Shown here: positions 2,013-34,882 of the stretch, one piece after another
Position numbering within the stretch: the stretch's first letter is position 1
How the letters are laid out: each line of letters starts with the position of its first letter
Source: Magnetospirillum fulvum MGU-K5
Lineage (GTDB): Bacteria > Pseudomonadota > Alphaproteobacteria > Rhodospirillales > Magnetospirillaceae
NCBI RefSeq assembly: GCF_000442515.1
Contig: NZ_AQPH01000028.1
Coordinates: 1-41,006, forward strand
DNA length: 41,006 nt
Direction of reading: 5' to 3'
The notes under the pieces: generated by a model
The model's database searches: none
The model's input: the letters and a program-made list of their open reading frames with translations, nothing else
What the model was told of the DNA's origin: nothing
Program-made: the position numbers and the translations under genes

Positions 2013-2052
2013 GGTAATCCCCCCATTTTTAACGGGGGTTGGACATAGAATT
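2013..2052. repeat. IS left terminal inverted repeat
   Basis: Forty bases that match the reverse complement of 3159-3198 at 27 of 40 positions when aligned by eye. The strongest blocks are the outer GGTAAT plus a C run and the inner GGACATAGAATT, which is GGACGTAGAATT at the other end. The last codon of orfB lies at its inner edge. Confidence 0.75.
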
Positions 2053-3249: not shown

Positions 3250-3428
3250 CGGTGCAGGGTAAATCAGGTGCCAGCAGCGGTCCCCGGAGACGGGGTTCAA
3301 AAGGGAACACGGTGTAAGTCCGTGACTGTTCCCGCAACTGTAAGGGGGGAGGTCCTTCCCACGACGCCACTGGGTAACCGGGAAGGCGGGATAGGACCAG
3401 CGATCCCTTAGTCAGGAGACCTGCCGTT
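3250..3428 (+). promoter_or_regulatory. Cobalamin (AdoCbl-type) riboswitch
   Basis: The conserved elements occur in the right order: AAAAGGGAACACGGTG (about 3299-3314), CCGTGACTGTTCCCGCAACTG (about 3320), GCCACTGGG followed by GGGAAGGCGGG (about 3366-3390), and the B12 box AGTCAGGAGACCTGCC at 3410-3425. This is the standard cobalamin aptamer and it precedes a BtuB-like receptor gene. High adenosylcobalamin is expected to shut off the operon that follows. The aptamer boundaries are approximate. Confidence 0.95.
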
Positions 3429-3723
3429 GCCAGTATCACCCATCCGTCGGGCGGGATACCCGGTCGGAGCGATTATTGTCGCCTCGTGGTGGTGCGCTGT
3501 TGCGTCGCTGCGGGGGTGGTTATGATATTCGGCCTGAACAGACACTGACCAATGAACCGGCGGGAGTGATCCCTGTCCGGCCGTGATTCCGCGTCTTTTG
3601 CGCGGAAGACGAGTCTGTTTTGCCGAGTAATCGATCCGTTCGCACGACGCGTGAGCATGGCGTTTCGCCCGATGGGGCGAGGCGTCGTCGGCAACGCATG
3701 GGTCGTAAGGGCGTGAACGTACG
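3429..3723 (+). other. Long leader between riboswitch and btuB
   Basis: There are 295 bases between the B12 box and the receptor start, with no convincing gene. A 7-bp hairpin (TTCCGCG at 3587-3593 with CGCGGAA at 3601-3607) is followed by a short T-rich stretch (GTTTTGCC) and could be part of the expression platform. No strong U-tract terminator is visible, so control may act on translation or through Rho. AAGGG about 12 bases before the ATG is the only ribosome-site candidate. Confidence 0.45.
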
Positions 3724-5691
3724 ATGAGGATGACGCAGAACGGGCGGATGGCGCATCTGTTGGTGACGGGGGCTGTTCTGGCCACCTGTCCCGCTTGGGC
3801 CGAAACCGAAGGCTCGATGGACGAGATGCTGGTGACCGCCACCCGCGTCGCCACGCCGGTCGATCAGATCGGTAGCTCGGTGACGGTGATTACGCGCGAC
3901 GAGCTTGATGCCCGCCAGACTCCCAAGGTCGACGAGGTTCTGAAAAGCGTTCCTGGGCTGTCGGTGACCCGGCAGGGCGGCATGGGATCGACCGCGCAGG
4001 TCAGGATACGCGGCGCCGAAACCAACCATACCCTGGTGTTGATCGATGGCCAGAGGGTCAATTACCAGGACACGATGTACAATTTCGATTTCGATTGGAT
4101 GGTCACCGACGATATCGAGCGGATCGAGGTTTTGCGAGGCCCCGCCGCCGGACAGTGGGGGTCGGACGCGGTCGGAGGCGTCATCAACATCGTCACCCGC
4201 AAGGGCAAAGGCCCGATGACGGTGACGGCTCAGACCGAACTGGGCAGTTACGACACCAACCGCGAGAATGTCGCGGCCCGAGGCGGTGGAGACTCTTACG
4301 ATTATTCCTTTGGCTGGTCGCGCTACCGCACCGCCGGATGGTCGATCGCTTCCCAAGACCGGGGAATGGGGACCGAGCGCGACGGGGCACAAAACAACAC
4401 CTTCAACGGCAAGGTGGGTTTTTCGCCCTCGGACAATTCCGAGATCGAGATCCGAGGCTCGCACACTGATTTCTGGGCGGAATTGGACGGCAGCAAAACC
4501 GGGGCCGGCACGCTCGACACCAACCGCTCGAAGGCAAAACACACCGACACCGGAGCGATCAAAGGCTCACTCGCCTTGTTGGACGGGATCTGGACCCAGA
4601 CCGTCAATGCCAGTGCGATTCGAAACGATCAGTGGAACATGGGGGGGACATCCTCGGGCTGTACCGTGGGCTCGCCGCTCTGTGCGGCTTACCTTGGCAC
4701 AACCGTCAACGCCTCGTGGCAGAACGATCTGCGCTTCAATAAGGACCATGTGACGACGATCGGCTACGAGGATAACCGCGACTATTACTGGCAGCGGCAG
4801 TATCAGCAGAAAAGCAAGATCACCAGTTCGTCGATGAAATCGACCGCGCCGTTCTTCCAGCATCAGGCCCACCTGTTCGACCAACTCGATCTGGGGGGAG
4901 GCTGGCGCGGCACCGATCACGACGTGTTCGGCTGGAATCCGACCTGGTTCACCACCCTGGCCTGGCACCTGCCCACCGATACGACGCTGAAGGGCTCGTA
5001 TGGCACGACGTTCAAGGCTCCGCTTCTCTTCCAGATATATTACCCGTCCGGTCTGTCCAATCCCGGACTGAAGGCAGAACAGGGGCGCGGCTGGGATGTC
5101 GGAATCGAACAGAAGCTGTTGGGCGGCGCGGCCAAGAGCGGGGTGACGTGGTTCCGCAATGACATCGACAACCTGATCAATTACGTCCCCATCGGCAATA
5201 CGGGACAGTACCAGAACACGGCAAAAGCGACGACGTATGGCGTCGAGACCTTCTTTACCTGGACGATCTTCAACGATGACGACGGGTCGCTGGAGGTCTC
5301 GCCCAGTTATACCTACACCCAGGCCTATGACCGGGCGACCTGGGCGGAATTGCCGCGCCGCCCGCGCCATAAAGTCGCCAATGATCTGTCCTGGCGCTTT
5401 CTGGAGAAGAAGGCCCGTCTGACGGTTTCGACGATCTACGGTTCCGACTTCCAGGAAAGTCGTTCGACCTCGGCGAAGGTTCCGAATCGGATGGGACAAT
5501 ATGTCCAGCTCGACATTTCTGGCAGTTACGATGTGACCGAGCAGGTTCAGCTCTATGGCCGGGTCGAGAATCTGGCCGAGGATTATCACGAATCCGCCTA
5601 TGGCTATGCCGAGACCGGGGGCCGCGCGTTCTTTACCGGGGTCAAGGTTGCGTTCCAGCCGCTCACCCTGGCTCGCGAGGCGATGAAATGA
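3724..5691 (+). CDS. btuB: BtuB-like TonB-dependent cobalamin receptor
   Basis: A 655-residue outer-membrane receptor that imports corrinoids using TonB energy. A signal peptide ends at CPAWA (about residue 26). The TonB box DEMLVTATR is near 33-41, the plug runs from about 45 to 160 (TLVLIDGQRVN, IERIEVLRGPAAGQWGSDAV, GGVINIVTR), and the rest is a 22-strand-type barrel. The last residues are RAFFTGVKVAFQP followed by a short tail; the chain does not end on the usual aromatic. The upstream riboswitch and downstream B12-type importer support a cobalamin substrate over a siderophore. A second ATG lies two codons in. The stop overlaps tonB by four bases. Confidence 0.9.
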   Translation: MRMTQNGRMAHLLVTGAVLATCPAWAETEGSMDEMLVTATRVATPVDQIGSSVTVITRDELDARQTPKVDEVLKSVPGLSVTRQGGMGSTAQVRIRGAETNHTLVLIDGQRVNYQDTMYNFDFDWMVTDDIERIEVLRGPAAGQWGSDAVGGVINIVTRKGKGPMTVTAQTELGSYDTNRENVAARGGGDSYDYSFGWSRYRTAGWSIASQDRGMGTERDGAQNNTFNGKVGFSPSDNSEIEIRGSHTDFWAELDGSKTGAGTLDTNRSKAKHTDTGAIKGSLALLDGIWTQTVNASAIRNDQWNMGGTSSGCTVGSPLCAAYLGTTVNASWQNDLRFNKDHVTTIGYEDNRDYYWQRQYQQKSKITSSSMKSTAPFFQHQAHLFDQLDLGGGWRGTDHDVFGWNPTWFTTLAWHLPTDTTLKGSYGTTFKAPLLFQIYYPSGLSNPGLKAEQGRGWDVGIEQKLLGGAAKSGVTWFRNDIDNLINYVPIGNTGQYQNTAKATTYGVETFFTWTIFNDDDGSLEVSPSYTYTQAYDRATWAELPRRPRHKVANDLSWRFLEKKARLTVSTIYGSDFQESRSTSAKVPNRMGQYVQLDISGSYDVTEQVQLYGRVENLAEDYHESAYGYAETGGRAFFTGVKVAFQPLTLAREAMK

Positions 5692-6503
5692 GGCCGGTCC
5701 CCGCCGTCAGCCCCCGCCAGGGTGCCGTCGGTGGGGGGCTTTCGCTGGCCCTTCATGCCGGGGGGCTGGCGCTGGCGCTGTGGGGAATGGGGCAGGCCGC
5801 GTTGCCACCCGCCGAGACGGTGGTCGAAATCGCCCTGGTCAGCGCAGCCGACGGAGCGGCCCAGTCGGAGTCCGGGGGGCAATCCCCGTCCGCTCCCGCA
5901 GCGACGGCGGCGCCCGTTCCCTCCGTGCCTGCGGCGGTTCCCGCTCCGGTCGTCGTGCCGCGAAGTCCCGTCAAGCTCACCCGTCCGGTCCGACCGGACG
6001 CCGTGTCTAGGCCCGTTCCAGCTCCGGTCCCGGCGCCGTCGGCCGCGCCGGTGTCCGCCGCTCCAACCGCCGAGGCGACATCGGCCACCGGCGAATCCGG
6101 ATCGGGCGGACCCGGTCCAAGCGGGCCGGGGGAAGGGAAGGCGTCGGCGAGCGAGGGCGGTGCCCCGGCGGGCGACCCAAACGCTCACGGCAGCGGGGGA
6201 CGGAGCGACGACCGACAGGCCGAGCCGCTGGACGCACCGCCGCCTTCTTATCCGCTGTCGGCACGGCGGCGCGGGCTCGAAGGCCGGGTTCAGCTTCGAA
6301 TTGCCATTGATGCCAACGGTCGGGTCGAAACGGTCGATGTCGCTGCCTCCAGCGGGTCCGAGACCCTTGACGACGCGGCGGTCGAAGCGGTGCGGCGCTG
6401 GCGGTTTCGCCCGGAGCGGCGGGGCGGCGAGACCCGTGCCGCGACGATCGTGGTTCCAATCCGGTTTCAACTGGGCGGCGTTGTCGTTGCCCGCAGCGAA
6501 TGA
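5688..6503 (+). CDS. tonB: TonB energy-transducing protein
   Basis: A 271-residue inner-membrane-anchored protein that couples the proton motive force to outer-membrane receptors. Residues about 15-38 form a single N-terminal membrane anchor (GGGLSLALHAGGLALALWGM). A long Pro/Ala/Val/Ser-rich periplasmic spacer follows (about 60-180). The C-terminal TonB domain (about 185-265) contains PPPSYPLSARRRGLEGRV, FRPERRGG and VVPIRFQL, the usual YP and WRF signatures. It overlaps btuB by ATGA, so it is probably dedicated to this receptor. No exbB or exbD is present in the window, so those partners must come from elsewhere. Confidence 0.92.
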   Translation: MRPVPAVSPRQGAVGGGLSLALHAGGLALALWGMGQAALPPAETVVEIALVSAADGAAQSESGGQSPSAPAATAAPVPSVPAAVPAPVVVPRSPVKLTRPVRPDAVSRPVPAPVPAPSAAPVSAAPTAEATSATGESGSGGPGPSGPGEGKASASEGGAPAGDPNAHGSGGRSDDRQAEPLDAPPPSYPLSARRRGLEGRVQLRIAIDANGRVETVDVAASSGSETLDDAAVEAVRRWRFRPERRGGETRAATIVVPIRFQLGGVVVARSE

Positions 6504-8385: not shown

Positions 8386-9164
8386 TCCTCGAAGCCACCG
8401 GTCTGTCGTTCGTCCGCGACGGTGCCACGATCCTGCACGATGTCGATTTCCGCCTCGATCCGAACGAGGTGGTCGGGCTGATCGGCCCCAACGGCGCGGG
8501 GAAGACCACTCTGCTGCGCTGTCTGATCGGTCTGGCTCGCCCGGAACGCGGCGACATCCGTCTGGACGGACGGTCCTTGGCCGAGTGGCCGTCGCGTGCC
8601 CGCGCCGGGGCGATGGCCTATCTGGCGCAAAATCCCGATTGCCACTGGCCGATGAGTGTCGAGCGGGTGGTGGCGCTGGGGCGTCTGCCCCACCTCGACC
8701 CCTGGCAGGCGATTGCTCCGGGCGATATCGCGGCGATTGAACGGGCAATCCAAGCCACCGATATCAGCCACCTGCGCGATCGGTCGGTGACCAGCCTGTC
8801 GGGGGGAGAGCGAGCGCGGGTGTTGCTGGCCCGTGCCCTTGCGGTCGAGGCTCCGTTTCTGTTTGCCGACGAACCGGTCGCCGGGCTCGATCCCGGTCAT
8901 CAGATTCAGGTGATGGATTTGCTGCGCCGGTCGGCCGGACGCGACCGGGCGGCGGTGGTGGTGCTGCACGATCTGACCCTGGCGGCGCGGCATTGCACCC
9001 GGCTGGTTCTGCTGGCCGAAGGGCGGGTGGTGGCCGATGGTCCGCCGGGCGAGGTGCTGACCGCCCCTATTCTGGCCCGGATCTATGGCATCGCCGCCCG
9101 GATCGAAACCCATGACGGAGCCTTGATGGTGGTGCCGGAAGGGCTGGCCCAGGTCGATGCCTGA
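8382..9164 (+). CDS. btuD: BtuD/FecE-type ABC transporter ATPase
   Basis: A 260-residue cytoplasmic ATPase that powers the importer. It has Walker A GPNGAGKTT (about 35-43), a Q-loop at LAQNPD, the signature LSGGERARVLLARAL (about 140), Walker B FLFADEPVAGLD, and the switch His in VVLHDLTLAARHC. It overlaps the permease gene by four bases and the radical SAM gene by eight, so translational coupling is likely. The set of BtuF, BtuC and BtuD is complete in this operon. Confidence 0.93.
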   Translation: MILEATGLSFVRDGATILHDVDFRLDPNEVVGLIGPNGAGKTTLLRCLIGLARPERGDIRLDGRSLAEWPSRARAGAMAYLAQNPDCHWPMSVERVVALGRLPHLDPWQAIAPGDIAAIERAIQATDISHLRDRSVTSLSGGERARVLLARALAVEAPFLFADEPVAGLDPGHQIQVMDLLRRSAGRDRAAVVVLHDLTLAARHCTRLVLLAEGRVVADGPPGEVLTAPILARIYGIAARIETHDGALMVVPEGLAQVDA

Positions 9165-10162
9165 GACCATGCCTCGTCCCGGGCTTGATCTGTTGGTGGT
9201 GTGGGTAACCACGCGGTGCCAATTGTCCTGCCGCGCCTGTTATCGTGGGGGCCGGGCCGGTGGGCGAGGATCTCGACCCCGCTTTGGCCGGGCGGGCCAT
9301 TGCCGCTCTGGGGCTTGCGCCGGGTGCGCAAGTCCAGATTGCCGGGGGCGAGCCGGGGCTGGTGCCCGATATCGTCAATCAGGTCGCGTCTCTGGCTCGG
9401 GCGGCTGGCGCCGGGCGGATCGCGATTCAGACCAACGGTCTGGCCATCGACGACCGCTTCATCGCCCTGGTGCGTCGGCATCGCCTGGGGGTCGGGGTCA
9501 GTCTCGACGGCCCGCCGCCGCTCAATGACCGGGTGCGCGGACAGACGGCGCAGGTACTGGCCGGGCTGCATCGGCTGGAGGCGGAGGGGATCGCGTTCGG
9601 AGTAACCGTCACTCTGTCGGCGGAAACGCTGCCCGGTCTGGTCGATCTGGCCCTGATGCTGGGCGGGTTCGCGATGGCCCGTTCGCTCGGGCTCGACATC
9701 CTGCGTCCGCTCGGGCGGGGGGCCGACATCGCCTTGCCGCGCCCCGCCGATCTGGCGCGGGCCTATTCGGCGCTGGTCGAAGCTCTCGACTGGGTCAATC
9801 GCCGCCGCCAAAAGCCGCTGGTCCTGCGTGAAGCGGGAATGGTCGGCTGCGGCCCCACCGAGTCCTACTGCGCGGCGGAACGGGGACGCGCCGCCGTGCT
9901 GGTCCCTGGCGGTGGGCTGTGGCCCTGTTCCAGTCTGGTCGGACAAGATGGGTTCAGCCTGGGCAACGTCGATCACCCGGACCTTTCCGCGTCCGCTTTG
10001 CGTCCGAGCCGCACCCTCTGCGGGGCTTGCGCCGTGTCCGGTTGCCGGGGGCGGTGTCCGGCCCGCGCCATCGTTTCGTCCGCCGCGTCGGCGCTTGATT
10101 GCGTTCTGCGCCGCGCCGCCCATCATCCTTCCGCTTCGGAGTCGATCCGTGTCCCAGCCTGA
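9157..10162 (+). pseudogene. Radical SAM/SPASM-like protein, frameshifted
   Basis: Two frames together make one radical SAM enzyme of about 334 residues. The first frame gives MPETMPRPGLDLLVVWVTTR, then the CxxxCxxC cluster motif (CQLSCRACY, from 9217). The second frame, from about 9245, gives VGEDLDPALAGRAIAALG, the SAM-binding AGGEP motif, IAIQTNG and VSLDGPP. A Cys-rich C-terminus (PTESYC, GLWPCSS, TLCGACAVSGCRGRCPA) suggests a SPASM-like auxiliary Fe-S cluster. The break lies in the G/C-rich run at about 9245-9251; removing one G restores the frame. It could be a sequencing error or a real mutation. The substrate is unknown. Its position suggests a corrinoid or chelatase role, but that is inference. 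Confidence 0.75.
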
Positions 10163-13100
10163 ATCCCTGATCGTCGTGATCGATTCGACCGGTTCCTCTC
10201 TGGGCAATCTGGGACAGGCGGTGCGAACCGTCGGACCCGGATTGGGGCTGGCGGTGGCAGCGCGGTCGCGTGACGATCTGTTCGACCGTGCCGCGATCGA
10301 GCGGGCGGCGGCTCTGGTCGCGACGGCCCATGCCGTCATCATCTTGCCCCATGGCGGGACCGAATCGATTCCTGGGTTCGAGACGATCATTGCGGCGGCG
10401 GCCGGGCGGCTGGTTCATGTCCAGCCCGCGCCCGCCTCGCCCGAGGGGATGGCGATCGCCAAGGATCATTCCAGCGATTTCGGCAGCCCGGCCTATCGCC
10501 GCCGCACCGCCTATCTGGCTCAGGGCGGGCCGGAGAATCTGGCCAACCTGCTGCGCTTTGTGAGGGGGGACGAGGACGCGCCGCCGCCTGCGCCGGTGCC
10601 GATTGATGGGGTTTACCATCCCGCTTATGCCGGTCCCTCCGACCCGGACAGCTATCTTGCCTGGGCGCGTGGGCGCTTTGCCGACGGAGAAACCCGCCCG
10701 GTGATCGGGCTGTGGTTCTATCGCCCGCATTGGCTGTCGGGCGATCTGGAGACCTACGATGCCCTGATCGCCGAGATCGAAGGGCAGGGAGGGCTGGCGC
10801 TGGCCCTGTTCCACGTCCGGGCCGGTGGCGCGACCCAGGGCGGATTGTCGGTGCCCGATCTGGTCGCACGCTGGTTCGCCGGACGGATCGGAGCATTGCT
10901 GTCGCCGCTCAGTTTCTCGCTGGCGCAATTGGGGGCCGACACGGCGCGGGTGCTGGGCGATCTCGACGTGCCGGTGCTGCAACTGATCCTGACCGCCAAT
11001 CCGCGCGCCGAGTGGGAGGACAGCCTTCAGGCGGTGACTCCGCTCGACGTCTCTGCCAATGTCGCCCAGCCGGAATTCGACGGTTGTTTGATCGGCAGCG
11101 TCGTTGCCACCCGCGAACATGCCGAGCCGGATAGATCGACCGGAACCCGGCTGATCCGCCGTCGCCCGGTGGAGGAGCGGTGCCGTCACGCCGTCTCGCT
11201 GGCGTTGAACTGGGCGCGGCTGCGCTCGGTTCCACCGCCCGAGCGCAAGGTGGCGATTCTGTTCCACCATTATCCGCCCCGCAACGATTGCCTGGGCTCG
11301 GCGGTGGGGCTGGACAGTTTCGAGAGTGTCCGGGCGATTCTCGACCGTCTCGCCGCCGAGGGCTATCGGCTCGACCATTCCTATCCCGATGGCGAAAGTC
11401 TGGCCCACGATCTGCTGTCACGGCTGACCAACGACCGGCGCTATCTGCCGCCCGCCCAGATGTCGCAGAAGGCGGCGGCACGGATCAATCGCGACACCGC
11501 GATCCGCTGGGATGGCGAGCGAAACGACACATTGCGGGCCGAGATCGCCGCCAAATGGGGCGAGCCGCCGGGGCGAACCTTCGTCCATGATGGCGAGATC
11601 CTGGTCGGCGGGCTGATCAACGGCAACGTCTTCATCGGTATGCAGCCGCCGCGCGCCCGGATGGACGATGGCGATGATGCGGTGGCGCAGCCGGACGGGA
11701 AGGCGGTGCACGATCCCTTCCTGCCCGCGACCCATCATTACCTCGCTTATTACCGCTGGCTGCGCGACGGGTTCGGCGCCCAGGCGGTGTTTCACATCGG
11801 CACCCACGGCACGCTGGAATGGATGCCGGGCAAAAGCGTCGGTCTGTCGGATTGGTGCCATCCCGACGCGGCGATCCGCGATCTGCCCAACCTCTATCCT
11901 TATAATGTCGGGATCATCGGCGAGGGGACGCAGGCCAAGCGGCGGTCCTATGCCTGCATTCTCGACCACATGATTCCGGCGCAGACCAGCGCCGATCTGT
12001 CCGAGCCGCTGGCCCGGGTCGAGACCCAGATCGAAACCGCTTATTTCACCGCTCAGGAAGACCCGGCCAAGCTGCCGTTGGTGTTCGACCGGCTGTGGGA
12101 AGCGATCGAAGCCGCTCATCTCGACCGCGACATGGGGCTGACGCGCGCCGATTTCGACCATGACGCGGCCGAGGCGTTGGGGCGGCTGCACGGCTATTTG
12201 AGCGAAATCGAGGTTACCGCGATCAATGACGGGCTCCACGTCTTCGGCCGCCCGCCCGAGGGGGACCGGCTGGTCTCGACCCTGGTGCATCTGACCCGGC
12301 TGCCCAATGGCGCGGGCGGCTCGCTGTGGGAGGCGATCGCCGCCGCTGCCGGTCTTGATCTGCTTGAACTGACCGACGATCCCGGCGGAGCCTTGCCGGG
12401 CGGCGGCACCAAGGGACAGGCCATCGCCCGGATGATCGACAGCGCCGAAGCGGCCTTGGCGGCGCTCGATGCCGCCGGGTGGAGCGACGCGGCGCTCGAC
12501 GACGCCGTCGCCGAGCGGTTCAACGGATCGGCTCGGGTGGCCCGTGCGCTCCGCTTCGTTCGCGACGATGTCCGCCCCCGTGTCCTTGCCACCACCGACG
12601 AACTGGAATTTGCCGCCCGTGGTCTGGCCGGGCGGTTCGTTCCCCCCGGTCCAGGCGGGGCACCGACGCGAGGCGCGATCGATGTTCTGCCGACCGGGCG
12701 CAATTTCTATTCGCTCGACCCACTGAAGATTCCCTCGGCCGAGGCATGGGTGTCGGGCCAAGCGATGGGTGACGCCCTGGTCGAGCGCTATCGCGCCGAT
12801 CACGGGCGCTGGCCGGAACAGATCGGCATGGTGTTGTGGTCGAGCCCGACGATGCGGACCCGGGGCGACGATGTCGCTCAAATTCTGTATCTGATCGGGG
12901 CGCGTCCGGTGTGGGAGGCCGGCAGTGGACGGGTCAGCGGGGTCGAGCCGATCCCGTTGGAGGAACGCCGCTTTCCCCGGTTTGACGTCACGGTGCGGGC
13001 CAGCGGTCTGTTCCGCGACACCTTCCCCAATGTGATGGAGCTGATCGACACGGCAACGCGGATGATCGCCGCTTTGGCCGAGCCGCCGACCCTGAATATG

Positions 13101-13922
13101 CTGGCCCGCAATGTCGCGATCGAGACCGCCGAATTGCGCGCCGCCGGGCTGGGCGAGGACGAGATCGCGCGGCGGGCCGCCTTTCGCGTGTTCAGCGACC
13201 GGCCGGGCTGTTACGGCGCCGGGGTCAACGCCCTGTTGCGCGATGGCGGCTGGGAAACCGCCGCCGATCTGGGCGAGATCTATCTGCATTGGGGCGGCCA
13301 TGCCTATGGGGCCGGAACCTATGGCGAGGAAAGCCGCGAGTCCTTCCGCCGCCGGATGGGCGCGCTCGATCTGACCGTGAAGAATTCCGACACCCGCGAA
13401 CACGACATCTTCGTCAGCGACGATTACAACGCCTATCACGGCGGGATGAACGCGGCGGTGCGGGCGGCGGGGGGTGGCACGGTTGCCAGTTATACCGGCG
13501 ATTCCAACGATCCCCGCCGTCCGCGCGTGCGCTCGACCGCCGAGGAAGGGCGCTTCATCTTCCGCACGCGGGTGCTGAACCCGAAATGGATCGAGGGGAT
13601 GATGCGCCACGGCTACAAGGGCGCGGGCGACCTCGCCAAGCTGGTCGAGTATTGCTTCCAATGGGACGCGACCAGCAACATTCTCGACGATTGGCAATAT
13701 GCCGAGATGGCGCGGACCTACGCCTTCGATCCGAAGATGCGCGACTTTTTCGCCCGTCATAATCCCCATGCCCTTCACACCATCGCCGAACGCCTGCTCG
13801 AAGCGATCCGGCGCGGCCTGTGGGCCGAGCCGGGTGCCGATCGCGACCGGCTGGAAACCCTGTTCCTGGATGCCGAAGGGCTGATCGAGGACACGATGTC
13901 GTCCCCCGGAGAGTCCCGATGA
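10149..13922 (+). CDS. cobN: Cobaltochelatase large subunit CobN
   Basis: A 1257-residue chelatase H-type subunit that binds the corrin ring and cobalt in the aerobic route. The diagnostic motif FHIGTHGTLEWMPGK is at 548-562, followed by the GEGTQAKRRSYACILDHM region. Near the C-terminus are HAYGAGTYGEESRESF and DDYNAYHGGMNAAVR, both typical of CobN/BchH. The length is close to the roughly 1275 of classical CobN. The start is taken as GTG at 10149, with CGGAG upstream and a 14-base overlap with the radical SAM gene; the frame is open further upstream but would overlap that gene by over 300 bases. It probably works with the ChlD- and ChlI-like subunits downstream. Classical CobS/CobT are absent here. 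Confidence 0.93.
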   Translation: MSQPESLIVVIDSTGSSLGNLGQAVRTVGPGLGLAVAARSRDDLFDRAAIERAAALVATAHAVIILPHGGTESIPGFETIIAAAAGRLVHVQPAPASPEGMAIAKDHSSDFGSPAYRRRTAYLAQGGPENLANLLRFVRGDEDAPPPAPVPIDGVYHPAYAGPSDPDSYLAWARGRFADGETRPVIGLWFYRPHWLSGDLETYDALIAEIEGQGGLALALFHVRAGGATQGGLSVPDLVARWFAGRIGALLSPLSFSLAQLGADTARVLGDLDVPVLQLILTANPRAEWEDSLQAVTPLDVSANVAQPEFDGCLIGSVVATREHAEPDRSTGTRLIRRRPVEERCRHAVSLALNWARLRSVPPPERKVAILFHHYPPRNDCLGSAVGLDSFESVRAILDRLAAEGYRLDHSYPDGESLAHDLLSRLTNDRRYLPPAQMSQKAAARINRDTAIRWDGERNDTLRAEIAAKWGEPPGRTFVHDGEILVGGLINGNVFIGMQPPRARMDDGDDAVAQPDGKAVHDPFLPATHHYLAYYRWLRDGFGAQAVFHIGTHGTLEWMPGKSVGLSDWCHPDAAIRDLPNLYPYNVGIIGEGTQAKRRSYACILDHMIPAQTSADLSEPLARVETQIETAYFTAQEDPAKLPLVFDRLWEAIEAAHLDRDMGLTRADFDHDAAEALGRLHGYLSEIEVTAINDGLHVFGRPPEGDRLVSTLVHLTRLPNGAGGSLWEAIAAAAGLDLLELTDDPGGALPGGGTKGQAIARMIDSAEAALAALDAAGWSDAALDDAVAERFNGSARVARALRFVRDDVRPRVLATTDELEFAARGLAGRFVPPGPGGAPTRGAIDVLPTGRNFYSLDPLKIPSAEAWVSGQAMGDALVERYRADHGRWPEQIGMVLWSSPTMRTRGDDVAQILYLIGARPVWEAGSGRVSGVEPIPLEERRFPRFDVTVRASGLFRDTFPNVMELIDTATRMIAALAEPPTLNMLARNVAIETAELRAAGLGEDEIARRAAFRVFSDRPGCYGAGVNALLRDGGWETAADLGEIYLHWGGHAYGAGTYGEESRESFRRRMGALDLTVKNSDTREHDIFVSDDYNAYHGGMNAAVRAAGGGTVASYTGDSNDPRRPRVRSTAEEGRFIFRTRVLNPKWIEGMMRHGYKGAGDLAKLVEYCFQWDATSNILDDWQYAEMARTYAFDPKMRDFFARHNPHALHTIAERLLEAIRRGLWAEPGADRDRLETLFLDAEGLIEDTMSSPGESR

Positions 13923-16900
13923 TCCGCGTCACTTTTCTGTTCAGTCACCCGGTGCTTGACCGCGTCTGGGACCGGGCCGCCGCCCGTCTTGCCGTGCGGG
14001 GGATCGCGGTTCGCGTCCTCAGCCAGTCGGCCGCGATCGATTGGACGGCGTTTGCCGAGGACTCGGTGGCCCTGGCCGATGCCGCCTGGGTCGAGGTCAC
14101 CCGCGCCTCGGCCGGGTTCGGCGCGGTGATCGCAGCGGCGCAACGCTGTCCGTTCGCCGTCGCCGCCGGGCTGGAAAGCCGGGCCGCCCTGGGCGATGCG
14201 CGTGCCGCCTGCCGGACGATGGTGTCGTCCTATCTGCGCGCCGGGACCGAGGCGGACCTGGAAAATGCGGTTCTGGCGCTGCTCCAGGGGGCCGGTCGGA
14301 TCGATCAAAGGCCGCCGCCGCCGACCGAGCCGCTGCTGCTGGGAATCCATCATCCCGCCGCATCCCAGCCCTGGGACGATTCCGCAGCTTATCTCGACTG
14401 GGCCGCCTCGCGTCTTGCCGCCGAGGCTCCGGCAGTGGCGATATTGTTCGACCGCAATGCCTGGCTGAACGACGATCTGGCGGCGATCGATGCTCTGATC
14501 AGTGGGCTGGAGGAGGCAGGGCTGGTCCCGGTGGCGCTGTTCTGTGCCTCCGATCTGGCGCGCGGCTGGGGGCGGCCCGATCATCCGCTGTCGCTTGGGC
14601 TGGAGGTACTGGGGCCACGGCTGGCCGCGATCTGGAACGCCGCCGGTCTGCACGGAGCCGACATCGAGTCCGATCCCTTCACCCCCCACGCCGTGCCGGT
14701 GATTCAGCTTCTGCGCGATTGGAGCCATGACGAGGAAGGCTGGCGCGCCGATGAGCGGGGGCTCAATCCGGTTTCGGTGATCTTTGGCCTGACCCGGCCC
14801 GAGATGATGGGCACCACCGATCCCACCTTGTTCGCCTGCACCTGGCGCGGCGACGGAGAAATCCGCCGCGCCGTTCCCGTCGCCGATCAGATCGCCCGGC
14901 TGGTTGGCCGGACCCGCGCCCTGATCCGCCTGCGCGAGCGCGAAAACGCCGACAAATCCGTCGCGATCCTGCTGCACAATCCGCCCTGCAAAGGAATGGA
15001 AGCGACGATCGGCTCCGCCCCCGGCCTTGATGCCCTGGACAGCGCGGTGCGGCTGCTCCATCGCTTGGGAGACGAAGGCTACGATGTCGGCACGCCTCCC
15101 GCCGACGGCGCGGCCCTGCTCAATCTGATTCGTGACCACCGCGCGGTGCAGGAATTCCGCTGGACCACGACGGGCGAAATCATCGCCCGGGGTGGTGCGT
15201 TGGCTTTGATCGACGAAGCGAGCTACCGCGCCGATTTCGCATCCTTGCCCGAGCCGGTGCGAACCGCGATCGACGCCGCCTGGGGAGCCTTTCCCGGTCA
15301 GGCGATGGTGGCGCCCGCCTCGGTTGGCGGCGGTCCCGCCCTGGTGATCAGTGGTTTGCGCTTTGGCAACATCCTGGTGATGACCGAACCCAAGCGCGGC
15401 TGTCACCGGGCGCGCTGCGACGGCGAGGTCTGCCGCATCCTCCACGATCCGCAAATTCCGCCGCCGCACCATTGGCTGGCGACGTTCTGGTTCCTGCGCC
15501 GCACAATCGATGCCGTGGTGGTGATGGGCAGCGAAAGCCCGCTCGAATATCTGCCGGGCAAGCGCACCGCTTTGTCCGAATCGTGCTACCCCGTTCTCAG
15601 CCTGGGCGATCTGCCGGTGATCCAGCCATCGCTGATTTCGGCGATGGGCGAGACGATGATGGCGCGTCGTCGCGGCCGTGCCGTGACCATCGGCCATCTT
15701 GGTGCCCCAGTGGCGCGCGCCGACAGTCTGGGCGGCGATTGGGACGAACTGGAAGAGATCACCCGTCAGTATCAAGGGGCCGAGGGCGCGCGCCGGGGCG
15801 AACTGGCGGCGCGGTTGAGCCTTGCTCTGCGGGCGATGGGACTGATCGGGGACGCGCCCGCCGCCGCCGAATTGGACACCGCAATCGAGTCCCTGCCGCG
15901 CCGATTGCGCAGCCTGCGGGCGCGAACCCTGGCGCTCGACCCGCATGTGTTGGGACGGGTGCCGGACGATACCGTCGCCGGGCTTTATGTCGCGGAGGCG
16001 CGGGGGACAAACGGTCGGCCGGTTGATGAGGATCGTCTCCGCGCCGCCCTGGCCGAGAGCGGAGGCGAACAGGACGCGGTGCTGGCGGCTCTGTCCGGCC
16101 GGTTCGTCACCCCCGGTCCCGGTGGGCATCTGTCGCGAGGTCGGGTTGAGTGCCTTCCCACCGGGCGCAATCCGTTCGGGGTCGATCTGCGCCGCATTCC
16201 GACCGAAGCCGCCTGGGCGGTGGGGGCGCGGATGGGCGAAAAGCTGCTCCGGGCCTGGAGCACCGACAGTGACGAGCCGTTTCCCCGCACCGTCGGCCTG
16301 TCGCTGTGGTCAAGCGATGCCTTCCAGGCGGATGGGGAAACCATTGCTCAGGCTTTGTGGCTGCTGGGCTGCCGCCCCTGTCGCGATGCCAATGGGCGGG
16401 TCGAGGGGGTCGAGCCGATCCCGCTGGCCGATCTGGTGATCGTCGATCCCGATGGCTCGGTTCGGCCTCGTCCCCGCCTTGATGTGGTGGTGCAGATCAG
16501 CGGCGTGGTGCGCGACACCCTGCCGGGGCTGTGCGGGCTGATCGACCGCGCCGTCGCCCTGGTCGCCGCTCTGGACGAGCCGCCCGAGCGCAATCTCCTG
16601 CGCGCCCATGTCGAGGAGCGTCTCGCGGTTCTGGCCAAGACGATGAGTGCGGAGCGGTCGGTGCTGCGCCGTCTGGCCCAGGCCCGCGTGTTCGGTCCGG
16701 CCGAGGGCGGCTATGGCGGCGCGATGGGACTGGCGCTTGATGCGTCGGCCTGGGACAGCGATGCCGATCTGGCCGAAATCGTCGTCAACCGCGCCGGACA
16801 GGCCTATGGCGCGGGCGGCGTCGCGCTGGCCGGGGGCGAGGCGATGCTGGGCGAATATGCCGAGGCGTTGCGGCGGACCGATCTGTGGTGCCAGCGCCAG

Positions 16901-17503
16901 GGATCGCCCGAAGCTGATTTGCTGTCGAGTTCCTGCGGAATCGAGGGCGGCGGCGCGGCGGCGGCGGCGCGACGTGGTCTGGGCGGGGGCCGGATGCGGC
17001 TGTTTTGGTCGGACAGTCAGACCGGTCCCGAGGGCGAGGTCCGCTCGCTGGCCGAGGAACTGACCCAGTCGCTGGCGTTGACCCTGCTCAATCCCGCCTG
17101 GCTGGCCCGGACCAGGACACAAGGCTATGGCGGCGCCCAGGCGATGAGCGACCGAGTTAACCGGCTGTTCGGCTGGTCGGCGACCGCTCATGCCGTCAGC
17201 CGGGCGCAGTTCGACGCGGTGCATGATCGTCTGGTCGGCGATAGCGCCACCCGCGACTGGCTGATGCAAACCAACCCGCATGCGCTGGACGAGATCGTTC
17301 GCCGTTTGCTCGAAGCCCAGGCGCGCGGCCTGTGGCAGATCGACGCGGCCCGGCTATCGGCGCTTCAGGCGGCGATGCTGGCGGTCGAAGGCGATCAGGA
17401 AGAGCGGCGCGGGACTGTCGAGGGCGAGTTTCAGGGCGGCGCGGTGACGATCCTGACCGAGAGCGCTGTCAAGGAGTGGACCCATGTCTTTCGTGTCCGA
17501 TAG
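13919..17503 (+). CDS. Divergent second CobN/BchH-like subunit
   Basis: A 1194-residue paralogue of the preceding CobN, joined to it by ATGA. The overall CobN fold is recognisable: HHWLATFWFL, LEYLPGKRTALSESCYP, ALWLLGCRP, VQISGVVRDTLPGL and QAYGAGGVAL. However, the position matching HIGTHG reads MGSESP (about 536-541), and the late DDYNAYHGGM motif reads SSCGIEGGGA. Upstream it carries Cys495-x4-Cys500-x4-Cys505 (CHRARCDGEVC), absent from the first CobN. I recall similar Cys motifs in CobN proteins of anaerobes, but cannot verify this here. It may be a regulatory, metal-delivery or differently specific subunit. It overlaps the ChlD-like gene by 20 bases. Confidence 0.85.
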   Translation: MIRVTFLFSHPVLDRVWDRAAARLAVRGIAVRVLSQSAAIDWTAFAEDSVALADAAWVEVTRASAGFGAVIAAAQRCPFAVAAGLESRAALGDARAACRTMVSSYLRAGTEADLENAVLALLQGAGRIDQRPPPPTEPLLLGIHHPAASQPWDDSAAYLDWAASRLAAEAPAVAILFDRNAWLNDDLAAIDALISGLEEAGLVPVALFCASDLARGWGRPDHPLSLGLEVLGPRLAAIWNAAGLHGADIESDPFTPHAVPVIQLLRDWSHDEEGWRADERGLNPVSVIFGLTRPEMMGTTDPTLFACTWRGDGEIRRAVPVADQIARLVGRTRALIRLRERENADKSVAILLHNPPCKGMEATIGSAPGLDALDSAVRLLHRLGDEGYDVGTPPADGAALLNLIRDHRAVQEFRWTTTGEIIARGGALALIDEASYRADFASLPEPVRTAIDAAWGAFPGQAMVAPASVGGGPALVISGLRFGNILVMTEPKRGCHRARCDGEVCRILHDPQIPPPHHWLATFWFLRRTIDAVVVMGSESPLEYLPGKRTALSESCYPVLSLGDLPVIQPSLISAMGETMMARRRGRAVTIGHLGAPVARADSLGGDWDELEEITRQYQGAEGARRGELAARLSLALRAMGLIGDAPAAAELDTAIESLPRRLRSLRARTLALDPHVLGRVPDDTVAGLYVAEARGTNGRPVDEDRLRAALAESGGEQDAVLAALSGRFVTPGPGGHLSRGRVECLPTGRNPFGVDLRRIPTEAAWAVGARMGEKLLRAWSTDSDEPFPRTVGLSLWSSDAFQADGETIAQALWLLGCRPCRDANGRVEGVEPIPLADLVIVDPDGSVRPRPRLDVVVQISGVVRDTLPGLCGLIDRAVALVAALDEPPERNLLRAHVEERLAVLAKTMSAERSVLRRLAQARVFGPAEGGYGGAMGLALDASAWDSDADLAEIVVNRAGQAYGAGGVALAGGEAMLGEYAEALRRTDLWCQRQGSPEADLLSSSCGIEGGGAAAAARRGLGGGRMRLFWSDSQTGPEGEVRSLAEELTQSLALTLLNPAWLARTRTQGYGGAQAMSDRVNRLFGWSATAHAVSRAQFDAVHDRLVGDSATRDWLMQTNPHALDEIVRRLLEAQARGLWQIDAARLSALQAAMLAVEGDQEERRGTVEGEFQGGAVTILTESAVKEWTHVFRVR

Positions 17504-19427
17504 CGTCTATCCCTTCGCCGCGTTGTGCGGTCAGGAGCGGATGAGGTTGGCGCTGGTGCTGGCGGCAATCGATCCCGCCATCGGCGGAGTGCTGATCCGG
17601 GGCGAGAAGGGGACCGCCAAATCGACCGCCGCACGGGGTCTGGCCGCGCTGCTGCCCCGGCTTGCCGAGGGACGGGCGGCCCCGTTCGTCGATCTGCCGC
17701 TGGGGGCCACCGAGGATCGGGTGATCGGCTCGATCGATCTGGAGGCGGCCCTGGCCGAGGGGCGGGCCCGTTTCCAGCCGGGTCTGCTGGCCCGCGCCGA
17801 TCAGGGCATTCTGTATATCGACGAGGTCAATCTGCTCGATGATCATCTGGTCGAATCGATCCTTGATGTTGCCGCAAGTGGGGTGAACCGGGTCGAGCGC
17901 GAAGGCCAAAGCCTGGTCCATCCCGCCCGGATTACCCTGATCGGCACGATGAATCCCGAGGAAGGCGACCTGCGCCCGCAATTGCTCGACCGTTTCGGGC
18001 TGGCGGTCGCGGTGAGCGGGGAGAGCGATCCCGCCATCCGTGTCGCCCTGATGCGGGCGCGGGAATCGTTCGAGCAGGACGGCACCGCTTTCGCCCAGGG
18101 CTGGGCCGAGGCTCAAGCCGTCCTGGCCGGGCGAATCGTTCGCGCCCGGGCCGCTTTGCCCCAGATTACCCTGCCGCGTCCGATGCAGGGATTTATCGCC
18201 GAAATCTGCCGCCGTAATCATGTTGCCGGTCATCGCGCCGATCTGGCGATCGCCCGCGCCGCCCGCGCTCATGCTGCCTGGGACGGTCGCGACATCGTCA
18301 CCGCCGAGGATGTTACCGAGGTCGCGCCGTTCGCGCTGCTGCACCGGATGCGGGGGGCCACGCCCGATCTGCCCCCGCCGCCGCCGCCGTCCGAGGACCC
18401 TGAGGAATCAGACCAGGACGGGGAGAGCGAGTCTGCGCCGAATTCCGACGGATCGGAGGAACAGGAGGAGAGCGGGGCGGGGGAGGGCGACGATGCGGCG
18501 CCTCCGCCCTCTGATGCCGAGTCGGCGGAGCAAGCCCCTGGCCCTGCCGGGGACGATGGTGATGTTCAGTCCATCGGCACGCCGTTCACGCCGCGTCCGC
18601 TGGGGTCCGAGCCGCGCGATGCATTGCTGCGCACCGGGTCGGGGCGGCGGGCCCGCTCGCTGTCGGCCAGTCGCCAGGGACGGATGGTCGCCAGCACGCC
18701 CCTGCGCGAGCGCGACGATATCGCCTTCGACGCCACCTTGCGCGCCGCCGCGCCGCATCAATTGCGCCGGAGGGACGAGGGGCCGGGGCTGGCCATCCGC
18801 ATCCGTCCCGAAGACATCCGCGAGAAGCGGCGCGAACGACGGGTCGGGTCGTTCCTGCTGTTCGTCGTCGATGGCTCGGGCTCGATGGGAGCACACCGGC
18901 GGATGGTCGAGACCAAGGCGGCGATTCTCAGCCTGCTGCTCGACGCCTATCAAAAACGTGACCGGGTAGCGATGGTGGTGTTTCGCGGCACCGGGGCCGA
19001 AACGGTGCTGCCGCCCACCGGGTCGGTCGAACGCGCCGCCCGCCTGCTGGCCGATCTGCCGGTGGGGGGACGGACCCCGCTCTCGGCCGGTCTGGTCGAA
19101 GCGGCTCGTCTGCTCGACCGGGTCGGCCGTCGCGACCCCGCCACCCGGCCGCTGGTCCTGGTCCTGACCGATGGCCGCGCCAATGCCGGTTTGGGCGGCG
19201 GTCCGCCGCACGAAGAGGCGCTGCGTCTGGCCGCCGCGCTGGGGCAGCGGTTTGCCGCCGCGCGCTTCATTGTCATCGACACCGAGCCGCCCGGCCTGAT
19301 CCGGCTTGATCTGGCCGGGCGGCTGGCCGCCGCGTTGGCCGCCCCCTGCCTGCGTACCGAGGATCTTCGCGCCGAGGATCTTCGCGCCGAGGATCTGGTT
19401 CATTTCGCCAAGGAGTTCCAACCGTGA
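17484..19427 (+). CDS. ChlD/BchD-like chelatase subunit (AAA+ plus vWA)
   Basis: A 647-residue chelatase D-type subunit. The AAA+ domain (about 8-290) has Walker [10 protein letters not shown], Walker [13 protein letters not shown] and [19 protein letters not shown]. An acidic and proline-rich linker follows (about 293-350). The C-terminal von Willebrand A domain (about 455-640) contains the MIDAS motif DGSGSM and [10 protein letters not shown]. Unlike many BchD proteins the N-terminal Walker A is intact, as in ChlID-type partners of CobN. It forms with the ChlI-like protein the ATP-driven motor for the CobN subunit(s). Its neighbours suggest cobalt rather than magnesium; no bch genes are in the window. 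Confidence 0.9.
19359..19396 (+). repeat. 15-bp tandem repeat near 3' end of chlD-like gene
   Basis: The unit GAGGATCTTCGCGCC occurs twice perfectly, followed by a third partial copy. It encodes [13 protein letters not shown] close to the protein C-terminus. The length is a multiple of three, so expansion or contraction keeps the frame. It looks like a recent slippage duplication. Confidence 0.85.
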
Positions 19428-20440
19428 GCCTTATCGACCCCCTCCGTCCGCTCTATCCCTTCGCGGCGATCGTCGGCCAGGAGCGGCTGAAGACGGCGTT
19501 GATCCTTAACGTGATCGATCCCAGCCTGTCCGGCGTGCTGATCCGGGGCGAGAAAGGGACCGCCAAATCGACGGCGGTCCGTGCGCTGGCCGCGCTGCTG
19601 CCCGATATCATTGTGGTCGAGGGCTGCCCGTTCCAGAGCGACCCCGATGATCCCAAGGCGATGAGTTCCGAGGTGCGGGCGCGGGTCGCCGAGGGCGAGT
19701 CTCTGCCCACCGTCACCCGGCGGGTGCGGGTGGTGGAACTGCCGATCAGCGCCACCGAAGACCGGGTGGTGGGCACCCTTGACCTTGAACACGCCCTGAC
19801 CGAGGGCAAAAAGCGGATCGAGCCGGGTCTGCTCGCCGCCGCCCATCGCGGCATTCTGTATGTCGACGAGGTCAATCTGCTCGACGATCATGTCGTCGAT
19901 GTGCTGCTGGATTCGGCGGCGATGGGGGTTAACACCATCGAACGCGAAGGGATCAGCGTCAGCCATCCCGCCCGCTTTACCCTGATCGGCACAATGAACC
20001 CCGAAGAAGGCGAGTTGCGCCCGCAATTGCTTGACCGTTTTGGCTTGTGCGTTCAGGTCGAGGGGCTGGCCGTGCCGGAACAGCGGGTCGAGGTGATCAA
20101 GCGCCGCGCCGCGTTCGAGGCCGATCCCGAATCGTTCGGCCTGGGTTGGGCGAAGGAGACCGAGGCGTTGCGCGTCCGGATCGCCGCTGCGATCGCGCGT
20201 CGTCCCCGCCTTGTCGCGACGGATGCGATTTTGCTCGATATCGCCCATCGCTGCCTTGCGACCGGAGTCGATGGGCATCGCGCCGACATCGTGATGCTGA
20301 AGACCGCCAAGGCTCTGGCCGCCTGGGCTGGGCGCGATGAGGTCATCGCCGCCGATCTGGACGAGGCGCAAACTCTGGTTCTGCCGCATCGGCAGCGCCG
20401 CCGCCCGTTCGAGGATGTGTTCCGCCCCGATGCCGCGTAA
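19424..20440 (+). CDS. ChlI/BchI-like AAA+ chelatase subunit
   Basis: A 338-residue AAA+ ATPase of the magnesium/cobalt chelatase I type. Walker A is [14 protein letters not shown] (about 44-57), Walker B is [16 protein letters not shown] (about 144), and [20 protein letters not shown] is present. The chelatase-type insert [10 protein letters not shown] is also seen. Start is GTG at 19424, overlapping the stop of the D-like gene (GTGA). With the D-like subunit it should form the two-ring motor that drives metal insertion by CobN. It closes the B12-riboswitch operon. The protein is BchI-like in sequence; assignment to cobalt rests on the operon. Confidence 0.9.
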
Positions 20441-21594: not shown

Positions 21595-22854
21595 TCAGCG
21601 TTTACCTGACCTCTCCCACCACCGCTGCCGCCGATACCGGGGCGTGATCGTCATCGTGCTGGCGTCAGGCCGATAGCGCAGCGATAGGAGTGCCGCCAGC
21701 AGCCCGGCCAGCACTGCCAGCCCGAGTACCCCGCTATAGCCGATCTGGCCGGCTAAAGCGGCTGCGCCCGACATCGTTGCCATCGCGAATAGCATGTTCA
21801 GGCTGTACTGAACGGTGTAATCGGTGGCCGGGCGGTCGGGTGAGGCATGGTCCATCATCAGGGTGGACAGGACCGTCGCCGCCGGATTGTAAAGCAGGAA
21901 ATACAGCAAGACGGCGGTGGTAACGCTGAAGGTTCCCGTCAGGCCGAACACCGGCAGGGCGAGGGCTGCGATGCCGAGAATTTGCAGCAGGGCGGCCCAG
22001 ATCATTCCGCGCCGTCGGCCCAGCCGGGGCAGCAGCCAGCCGGTAATCATCGCCGCCGCCATTCCGGCCAGCGAGCCGAGCACGTTGACGGCGAAGCCGA
22101 TCCGGTCCATCTCCCAACCGGCATCAACCAGGATCGGGATGATCAGGGCGTAGGCCAGGCTGCTGCCGATCGGATAGAGCAGCAGCAGCAGCAGCCACAG
22201 CCGCCCGCCCGGCTGGTTCCAGAAAGCGGCGACGGAACGGAACAGATTGGCCCCGACGGTGGGGACGATGGCCCATTTCGGCTCGCGGTACCACAGCAAT
22301 TGAAGCAGCGAGATGGAGGTCCCGGCAGCGAGGAGCAGCAGGCTGCCCTGCCAGCCGAGATAGGGATAGGTAATCAAAACCACACCGCCGCCCAGCATGT
22401 TGCCGAACAGGTTGCCGGCAATCTGGATGCCGTTGCCGAAGCCGCGATCGGACGGTGCCAGCAATCGGCAGGCTAGGCCATCGACGGCGATGTCCTGCGA
22501 GGCCGACAGCACCGCCACCGCCAACCCAAGCAAATAGATGGTCCAGAACTCGCCGATCACGTCGAACCGTCCCATCGCCGCGAGGGTCAGGGCCAGCCCG
22601 GTTTGGGTCAGCAGCAGCCAGACCCGGTAATGTCCCCAGCGGCCGAACCGGATACGGTCGACCAGCGGCGCCCACAGGAATTTCAGCGGCCAGACCAGCC
22701 CCAGCATGTAGATCAGGCCGATCTGGTCGAGGCTGCCGCCCTGGTCGCGCAGGATCGCCACCAGGGCGACCACCAGGAAGCCGAGCCCGAGATATTGGGT
22801 GGTGTAGAGGCTGGTCAGCAGCCACCACGTCGCCGACGTCGTCTTGCGCTCCAT
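21595..22854 (-). CDS. RhtX/FptX-family siderophore MFS transporter
   Basis: A 419-residue inner-membrane protein with about 12 hydrophobic segments, related to AmpG-like MFS proteins. In the RhtX/FptX family such single-protein permeases carry a ferric siderophore from the periplasm to the cytoplasm, replacing an ABC importer. Landmarks are TQYLGLGFLVVALVAILRDQG, LKFLWAPLVDRIRFGRWGHYR and SASQDIAVDGLACRLL. It starts 12 bases after the receptor stop with AGGAG as ribosome site, and is the last gene of the siderophore operon. Its place beside the receptor and NRPS argues for the import of this locus's own siderophore rather than muropeptides. Confidence 0.85.
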   Translation of the reverse strand: MERKTTSATWWLLTSLYTTQYLGLGFLVVALVAILRDQGGSLDQIGLIYMLGLVWPLKFLWAPLVDRIRFGRWGHYRVWLLLTQTGLALTLAAMGRFDVIGEFWTIYLLGLAVAVLSASQDIAVDGLACRLLAPSDRGFGNGIQIAGNLFGNMLGGGVVLITYPYLGWQGSLLLLAAGTSISLLQLLWYREPKWAIVPTVGANLFRSVAAFWNQPGGRLWLLLLLLYPIGSSLAYALIIPILVDAGWEMDRIGFAVNVLGSLAGMAAAMITGWLLPRLGRRRGMIWAALLQILGIAALALPVFGLTGTFSVTTAVLLYFLLYNPAATVLSTLMMDHASPDRPATDYTVQYSLNMLFAMATMSGAAALAGQIGYSGVLGLAVLAGLLAALLSLRYRPDASTMTITPRYRRQRWWERSGKR

Positions 22855-22865
22855 CCGCGCTCTCC

Positions 22866-25019: not shown

Positions 25020-25093
25020 GGTCTTGCACCGACATTGAAAGGCCCTCTTCTTTTGATTGTCATTCGGGGCGACGGGACCGGCCCGTCTATGGT

Positions 25094-34659: not shown

Positions 34660-34683
34660 AGATTCCTTTGCTCACCGGCGGGC

Positions 34684-34870: not shown

Positions 34871-34882
34871 GTGCCTTCACGG

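Follow-up and report, generated by a model that had tools for sequence, protein, structure and literature searches.

A CobN-family protein without the HxGxHG catalytic histidine is encoded beside an intact CobN in a cobalamin-riboswitch operon of Magnetospirillum fulvum

We analyzed a stretch of 41,006 nucleotides from Magnetospirillum fulvum MGU-K5 (contig NZ_AQPH01000028.1, positions 1 to 41,006; hereafter, the window), in which two large proteins of the CobN family are encoded one after the other. The first, CobN1, carries the canonical HxGxHG motif. The second, P2, has lost both histidines of this motif, and its gene is intact, conserved in several genera and under purifying selection. The reading we favor, with a probability of roughly 0.42, is that P2 is a retained, re-tooled tetrapyrrole-binding (H-type) subunit that would partner CobN1 as a carrier of ring or metal, a donor or an assembly partner. 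The two genes and the positions within P2 that matter most are as follows (N3 is a related protein introduced below):

10149..13922, forward strand: CobN1, canonical-motif CobN; GTG start, 1257 residues; HIGTHG at 549-554, DDYNAYHGGM; TIGR02257 at 898.2 bits, above the cut-off of 822.05
13919..17503, forward strand: P2, His-less CobN-family protein; ATG start, 1194 residues; four conserved Cys (357, 495, 500, 505); Glu539 at the catalytic-His position; PF02514 at 836.9 bits
14987..14989, forward strand: codon of P2 Cys357 (HNPPCK), the fourth conserved Cys; placed by alignment, present in 7/7 P2 and in N3
15401..15433, forward strand: P2 codons 495-505, C-x4-C-x4-C (CHRARCDGEVC); hand-placed at Loop I, which the accessible part of PMC12583661 describes as the cleft gate of HmuS and ChlH
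15521..15538, forward strand: P2 codons 535-540, VMGSES replacing HxGxHG; placed by alignment

An earlier note on this DNA had described CobN1 with HIGTHG at residues 549-554, joined by ATGA to a second open frame of 1194 residues that lacks both motif histidines and carries C-x4-C-x4-C at 495-505. All of this is confirmed in the sequence: the frames overlap as ATGA, and P2 contains no internal stop. The note had also set MGSESP (536-541) against HIGTHG. The loss of the motif holds, and the register shifts by one residue, since it is VMGSES (535-540) that aligns; in the window, the exchanges are thus H535V, H539E and G540S.

We aligned seven distinct P2 proteins (that of the window and six others, 52-97% identical to it) with 12 other CobN-family rows. 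The second histidine of HxGxHG was invariant in 12/12 of the other rows and was replaced by an acid, Glu in four and Asp in three, in all seven P2. The first histidine, at position 535, was altered in six of the seven, the P2 of genome G020 retaining it. The same pattern emerged from a broader comparison of frames of at least 600 residues with the motif.E[FWY].PGK in the fetched loci: among the matches listed, HxGxHG was present in 55/55 distinct non-P2 frames and absent from 8/8 P2 lines (the seven proteins and a partial G020 copy from an overlapping stretch). The other replacement described earlier, SSCGIEGGGA in place of DDYNAYHGGM, is indeed found at 1004-1013. This second motif varies among P2 orthologues (e.g., GCYVGTHGG and SSYLDIQGG), so that what the P2 proteins have in common is the loss at 535/539 alone. 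Cys1006, within it, aligns under the second Asp of DDY in a column that is Cys in five of the seven P2, and we did not build on it.

Examining all conserved columns revealed that the changes in P2 are concentrated around the active site. Across the 12 non-P2 rows, 94 columns were invariant, and 69 of these were retained by all seven P2. Nine were altered in six or seven P2 (113, 490, 525, 529, where P2 has a gap, 535, 539, 650, 757 and 913), five of them falling in the region 485-545 around Loop I and HxGxHG, which holds only 12 of the 94 columns (p 0.0014 for a region picked post hoc; p 0.044 for the wider region 470-600). At position 490, the other rows have Gln and P2 again has an acid in every case (Glu in five, Asp in two). 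As a control, we took CobN1 as the focal group against the same five other rows: 12/133 columns were altered throughout, vs. 11/133 for P2, with four shared, and none of the CobN1-altered columns lay within HxGxHG. The amount of change in P2 is therefore ordinary, and its place is not. Two acidic residues of P2, E543 and E578, align with E625 and E660 of ChlH and are present in all P2; the ChlH variants E625K and E660D/W are known from structure titles, and the P2 equivalents were set by alignment.

The gene is also constrained. Between the window and M. fulvum, the ratio of nonsynonymous to synonymous substitution rates (dN/dS, Nei-Gojobori) of P2 was 0.154, far below 1, compared with 0.115 for CobN1, 0.127 for ChlD, 0.062 for ChlI, 0.105 for BtuB, 0.165 for BtuF and 0.086 for BtuD. 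BtuC showed no amino-acid change (dN/dS 0), TonB stood at 0.337, and the open part of the radical-SAM gene stood at 0.364. A pseudogene would be expected to show a dN/dS near 1 or a broken frame; the value for P2, together with its open frame, rules out decay of P2. The suggestion of the earlier note, that selection has kept so long a frame intact despite the loss of core residues, is thus borne out, both by this ratio and by the acid at position 539 in 7/7 P2 from several genera. The note had further named an active cobaltochelatase clade with MGSES-type sequence as a finding that would speak against it, and none appeared among the open-access papers listed.

P2 is rare and tied to its neighbors. 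Full-length orthologues were found in 4/55 genomes of the family and, at E<=1e-100, in 6/248 genomes of the order (4/101 genera); in the class, the only one of 385 genomes was the window's own. The order and class searches scored at most two candidates per genome. Five P2 loci were found in a named scan: Magnetospirillum fulvum DSM 13234, M. aberrantis SpK, Oleispirillum naphthae Y-M2 and two metagenome genomes. CobN1 (E 1e-250) was detected in nine order genomes (G000, G035, G041, G020, G051, G119, G168, G190 and G241), and the radical-SAM gene (E 1e-40) in seven, namely the six with P2 and G190. Taking the three 248-genome draws as the same set, P2 is nested within the radical-SAM gene and the latter within CobN1: P2 was seen only where CobN1 was seen, and CobN1 and the radical-SAM gene co-occur in 6/6 order genomes with P2. 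At the level of gene order, CobN1 immediately precedes P2 in 7/7 loci, and a ChlD-like gene immediately follows it in 6/7.

Further CobN-family genes turned up in these genomes. In G241 (contig C8), the PF02514 genes found were CobN1 and P2 only, and in G190 (C1), CobN1 only, so that CobN1 would be the sole large subunit with an intact His motif there. G119 carries a second CobN1-type gene (C16, 2469-6266), and the CobN1-type match in G168 (C32, 14700-18392) contains one in-frame TAG. G000 encodes a further CobN-family protein (C32, 9371-13621; locus L056), in which HFGTHG is intact and a hydrophobic stretch lies at the C-terminal side; a TonB receptor gene is nearby, and the protein looks like a membrane-anchored one of the BtuS/HmuS type.

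In the window, the operon runs from a riboswitch through BtuB-like, TonB, BtuF, BtuC, BtuD, radical-SAM, CobN1 and P2 to ChlD-like and ChlI-like genes. Its remaining members are:

3261..3442, forward strand: cobalamin riboswitch (RF00174) at the operon head; 129.7 bits, E 1.6e-32
3724..5691, forward strand: BtuB-like TonB-dependent receptor; best NCBIfam model TIGR01779 (TonB-B12) at 299.8 bits, below the cut-off of 599.7; Pfam Plug and barrel
5688..6503, forward strand: TonB; PF03544
6500..7363, forward strand: BtuF-like periplasmic binding protein; PF01497
7357..8385, forward strand: BtuC/FecCD permease; PF01032
8382..9164, forward strand: BtuD/FecE-type ATPase; PF00005
9157..10162, forward strand: radical-SAM gene, frame-broken; longest open part 9245-10162, with PF04055
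17484..19427, forward strand: ChlD/CobT-like AAA+ and VWA subunit; 20-base overlap with the end of P2; TIGR02442 at 715.1 bits, below the cut-off of 779.45
19424..20440, forward strand: ChlI/CobS-like AAA+ subunit; TIGR02442 at 489.7 bits and TIGR02030 at 430.2 bits, both below their cut-offs

Just upstream of the operon lies an integrase-core (rve) gene (2052-2768, minus strand). Downstream, the minus strand of 21595-39645 holds a nonribosomal peptide synthetase, an AMP-ligase/chorismate-binding fusion and an AraC regulator and, on inspection by eye, a TonB receptor and an MFS transporter; this region looks like a salicylate-type siderophore cluster.

Among seven loci scanned, riboswitches lay upstream of the gene set in those of M. 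fulvum (L038), G020 (L045), G051 (L047) and G119 (L049). In L045, one riboswitch immediately precedes the radical-SAM gene, and the G041 locus (L053) holds a partial riboswitch at its edge. The scan reported none in L051 and L084, whose continuations L052 and L085 lay outside it. In L049, two cobalamin riboswitches stand in tandem (7934-8128 and 8532-8729) upstream of the radical-SAM gene, CobN1 and P2.

The radical-SAM gene immediately precedes CobN1 in five of the six P2 clusters whose flanks were read; in G241, it lies ~14 kb after P2. A class-wide search at 1e-35 matched one of 190 genomes, the window's own. The M. fulvum copy (L038) is an open frame of 344 codons with a PF04055 match. The copy in the window differs from it by one base in length near 9245 and is out of frame directly after CxxxCxxC, through either a real mutation or an assembly error. 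Pfam detected no SPASM domain in the protein, the weak NCBIfam matches were to SPASM-type maturases, and its relatives among solved structures were four, all weak. Upstream of the radical-SAM gene, two of the genomes that encode P2 carry a pair of methylmalonyl-CoA-mutase-type genes together with a gene for a MeaB GTPase (L052, 10171-15652; L049, 2460-7863); this set was assigned by Pfam in L052 and judged from similar length and start in L049.

What might P2 do in such an operon? Work on the heme de-chelatase HmuS, cited here from the accessible part of the report (PMC12583661), shows that His538, the second histidine of the motif, coordinates the cation of the cleft together with His1209, and that the H538A variant abolishes de-chelation. 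The same part of the report equates His538 with His522 of Mycobacterium tuberculosis CobN and describes the second histidine as apparently strictly conserved across the superfamily. With a carboxylate in its place, P2 should not perform the usual His-dependent metal insertion. As an H-type CobN/ChlH subunit encoded together with CobN1 and the ChlI/ChlD motor, P2 would most likely bind the corrin ring and/or cobalt and serve CobN1 at a shared ATPase ring, and its four Cys at the gate of the cleft would bind a metal with a structural or redox role. The riboswitch upstream suggests that P2 is presumably made when vitamin B12 is scarce. Sequence, operon, conservation and purifying selection are what the analysis shows; binding of ring or metal, partnership with CobN1 and a metal at the Cys site are what we infer.

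Several observations weigh against this reading. CobN1 can evidently function without P2: P2 is missing from G041 and G190, in which a Pfam search of eight genomes found none, and from G168, as judged by the order-wide search only. In G119, no ChlD- or ChlI-like gene occurs within the 17 kb read downstream of P2, so that the shared motor is not encoded beside P2 there. The ATGA overlap is found at only two of the seven CobN1-P2 junctions (window and M. fulvum), the two genes being adjacent without it at the other five. The P2 of the window and of M. fulvum also lack the family-invariant residues 569, 674 and 1013, kept by the other five, and sit on a longer branch than other P2 (0.56-0.58), which could mean that constraint is relaxing in this lineage. 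In G041, of the same genus, the operon lacks both P2 and the radical-SAM gene; together with the frame break in the window, this may indicate that the pair is on its way out in the window's group, unless the break is an assembly error. Finally, the AlphaFold model of P2 has a predicted local distance difference test (pLDDT) score below 50 at 490-525 and 527-607, i.e., throughout the active-site region.

Turning to ancestry, the earlier note had viewed P2 as a tandem paralogue of CobN1 that gained a Cys triad, and the analysis supports neither a recent tandem copy nor a gain of the triad in this paralogue. P2 and CobN1 align with 36% identity in the C-terminal part and 28% in the N-terminal part (BLASTP). 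Their overall identity of ~30%, vs. 57-98% among CobN1 orthologues, rules out a recent tandem duplication. As for the cysteines, the same triad occurs in N3, a four-Cys CobN-like protein of G051 (L048, 8894-12838; C94, 114893-118837) whose HVGTHG is intact. N3 carries KRGCAGARCDGTVCRILHDP, NNNPC and HVGTHG, and thus an equivalent of C357, the fourth member of the P2 Cys group, which is conserved in 7/7 P2. If N3 is the sister of P2, the triad is not a novelty of P2, and the Cys site probably predates the loss of the histidines. The gene lies ~6.5 kb downstream of P2, with ChlI, ChlD, BtuC/D-like and TonB-receptor-like genes of its own.

In a 35-row tree, P2 formed one clade (100/100) with N3 as its sister (99/99), apart from CobN1, canonical CobN and BchH; the tree program issued a warning, as P2 and N3 are both long branches that join each other. 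When N3 was included, the approximately unbiased (AU) test rejected forcing P2 and CobN1 together (p 2.64e-8); once N3 and the row C32 were removed, it no longer did (p 0.136). The separate origin of P2 hence leans on the link to N3, which weakens the claim. Quick trees placed P2 outside the CobN and CobN1 rows, beside BchH, when N3 and C32 were left out, and placed N3 in the corresponding position when P2 (and C32) were left out; these agree with the P2-N3 join and do not prove it. Apart from the Cys stretches, 32 residues are common to P2 and N3 and absent from every other row, compared with 9-16 for other pairings, and NF004646 was the best NCBIfam model for N3 and the three P2 scanned, vs. 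TIGR02257 for CobN1. Counting against the link, the identity of these three P2 to N3 outside the Cys stretches (30.6-34.5%) overlaps that to other rows (27-33%), and the window P2 is slightly closer to the canonical CobN C37 (31.4%) than to N3. Overall, N3 as the nearest sampled relative and a separate ancestry of P2 are supported but not settled, and P2 and CobN1 may still go back to a shared ancestor in the distant past.

NF004646 itself matched in two control genomes, both of methanogens, and exceeded its cut-off in one; N3 reached 1395 bits against the cut-off of 1468. We infer that P2 probably derives from a CobN-like line of its own with four Cys, which may be the NF004646 line that also matches in methanogens, its axial or catalytic histidine having been exchanged for a carboxylate. 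Searches for closer members of this line yielded little. In a phylum sample of 398 genomes, 16 matches to N3 (E<=1e-150) were 34-38% identical, and those read lacked the triad; NF004646 at E 1e-270 matched 0/190 phylum genomes. Of 159 plasmid records, identity was at most 36.2% among the 40 matches listed, and five of five read lacked the triad. Phages gave two records at <=34% identity, and IMG/VR gave none.

The most serious competitor to a partner role, somewhat unlikely in our estimate, is that P2 catalyzes chelation or de-chelation itself, through a carboxylate site (Glu/Asp539, the acid at 490 and Glu578), acting on another metal or on a ring modified by the radical-SAM enzyme. The replacement being an acid in 7/7 P2 at both 539 and 490, the retained equivalents of ChlH E625 and E660, and the radical-SAM gene in all six order genomes with P2 would fit such an enzyme. 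The HmuS H538A result, however, implies that the histidine is needed in at least one member of the superfamily (PMC12583661, accessible part). The association with the radical-SAM gene is also modest: among nine CobN1 genomes, six with P2 fall inside seven with the radical-SAM gene, i.e., 7/84 = 0.083 by a hand count that ignores kinship, and G190 has the radical-SAM gene without P2 while the window's copy is frame-broken. A bolder version is less probable again: P2 would move metal into or out of a corrin-like ring, using the carboxylate site and the four-Cys gate on a ring, or with a cofactor, supplied by the radical-SAM enzyme under B12-riboswitch control, an unrecognized metal- or corrinoid-remodeling activity.

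That P2 is a regulator or decoy, occupying the ChlI/ChlD ring or sensing a tetrapyrrole and thereby tuning CobN1 or, in genomes that have one, a Mg-chelatase H subunit, strikes us as quite improbable. Its place in the same operon as ChlI/ChlD is suggestive, as is the modulation of chelatase activities in Bacteroides fragilis extracts by the CobN-like proteins BtuS1 and BtuS2 (in the accessible part of PMC6460266). A mere decoy would not need the conserved acid at 539 and the four Cys, and tuning of Mg-chelatase cannot be general, since the PF02514 matches in G020, G119 and G241 are accounted for by CobN1-type proteins, P2 and, in G020 only, a canonical CobN. Very unlikely, in turn, is a redox protein in which the radical-SAM enzyme acts on or at the Cys triad and C357, through thioether or Fe-S maturation. 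The position of the radical-SAM gene before CobN1 in most clusters and its weak matches to peptide maturases point that way; N3, however, has this Cys motif while retaining the His motif and is accompanied by a ChlI/ChlD set of its own, in a genome that also carries the radical-SAM gene, and the frame of this gene is broken in the window. Least credible of all is that P2 is a decaying gene or assembly artefact, as the broken neighboring frame and the absence of both genes from the G041 operon might suggest, given its dN/dS of 0.154, the lack of a stop in any of seven P2 and the 52-97% identity to the window P2 across genera, a conservation that refutes decay at the level of the family.

The partner role of P2 thus remains the reading we prefer, and the system is of wider use. 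A selected, natural exchange of histidine for an acid beside an intact CobN in one operon offers a direct test of the role of this histidine, of the way in which a single ChlI/ChlD motor is shared among H subunits, and of the purpose of the four-Cys CobN-like line. Several CobN-like proteins per genome are already known, with two BtuS copies in B. fragilis and Methanosarcina barkeri (PMC6460266, PMC10846266, accessible parts), and CobN-annotated proteins that cluster mainly from methanogens are described as having unclear functions in the accessible part of PMC12583661. Among the open-access papers listed, we found no report of a His-less CobN paralogue; the loss of the histidine in a co-operonic partner is the part that appears unreported.

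By profile, P2 is a member of the CobN/ChlH superfamily, and it is not a CobN, BchH or HmuS by the cut-offs and motifs tested. It exceeds the PF02514 cut-off of 24.5 bits by a wide margin, in two halves covering 2-615 and 676-1088 of 1090 positions (CobN1 scores 1181.2 bits), and its sequence matches the structures 7c6o, 4zhj and 9d26. The AlphaFold model, built with 10 other rows (pLDDT 64.6; predicted TM score, pTM, 0.44), gave 20 Foldseek matches at E<=0.001, all of them CobN, ChlH or HmuS chains, with query TM scores of 0.29-0.33; C-terminal fragments were matched well (target TM score, TMt, 0.86-0.88). Given the low confidence at the active site, the model provides a fold assignment only and no basis for the geometry of the four-Cys or acid site.

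Compared with CobN (TIGR02257; 7c6o, 9uk9), P2 shares PF02514, near full-length alignment, adjoining ChlD/ChlI-type genes and a B12-riboswitch operon; it differs in its score against the aerobic CobN model (528.3 bits, cut-off 822.05), in having Glu/Asp for the HxGxHG histidine with position 535 altered in most P2, in its four Cys and in its separate branch in the trees. The NF004646 type of CobN (PRK05989.2-4) is the best model of both P2 and N3, which have the four Cys in common. The three P2 scanned nevertheless score 694.6-807.8 bits, below the cut-off, and have lost the histidine, and the likeness is drawn from N3 rather than from methanogen sequences. With the HmuS/BtuS heme de-chelatases (9d26), P2 shares the superfamily and the pairing of a CobN-like protein with uptake genes, B. 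fragilis likewise having two BtuS genes, whereas VMGSES stands in place of HFG(T/A)HG and the operon is of the btu/cobalamin rather than the hmu kind. BchH/ChlH (TIGR02025; 4zhj, 6ysg) resembles P2 in superfamily and in the retained equivalents of E625 and E660; P2 differs from it in the lost histidine and in scoring 501.3 bits against a cut-off of 829, and the window's genome carries a separate BchH-like gene, so labeled from its motif and place in the tree.

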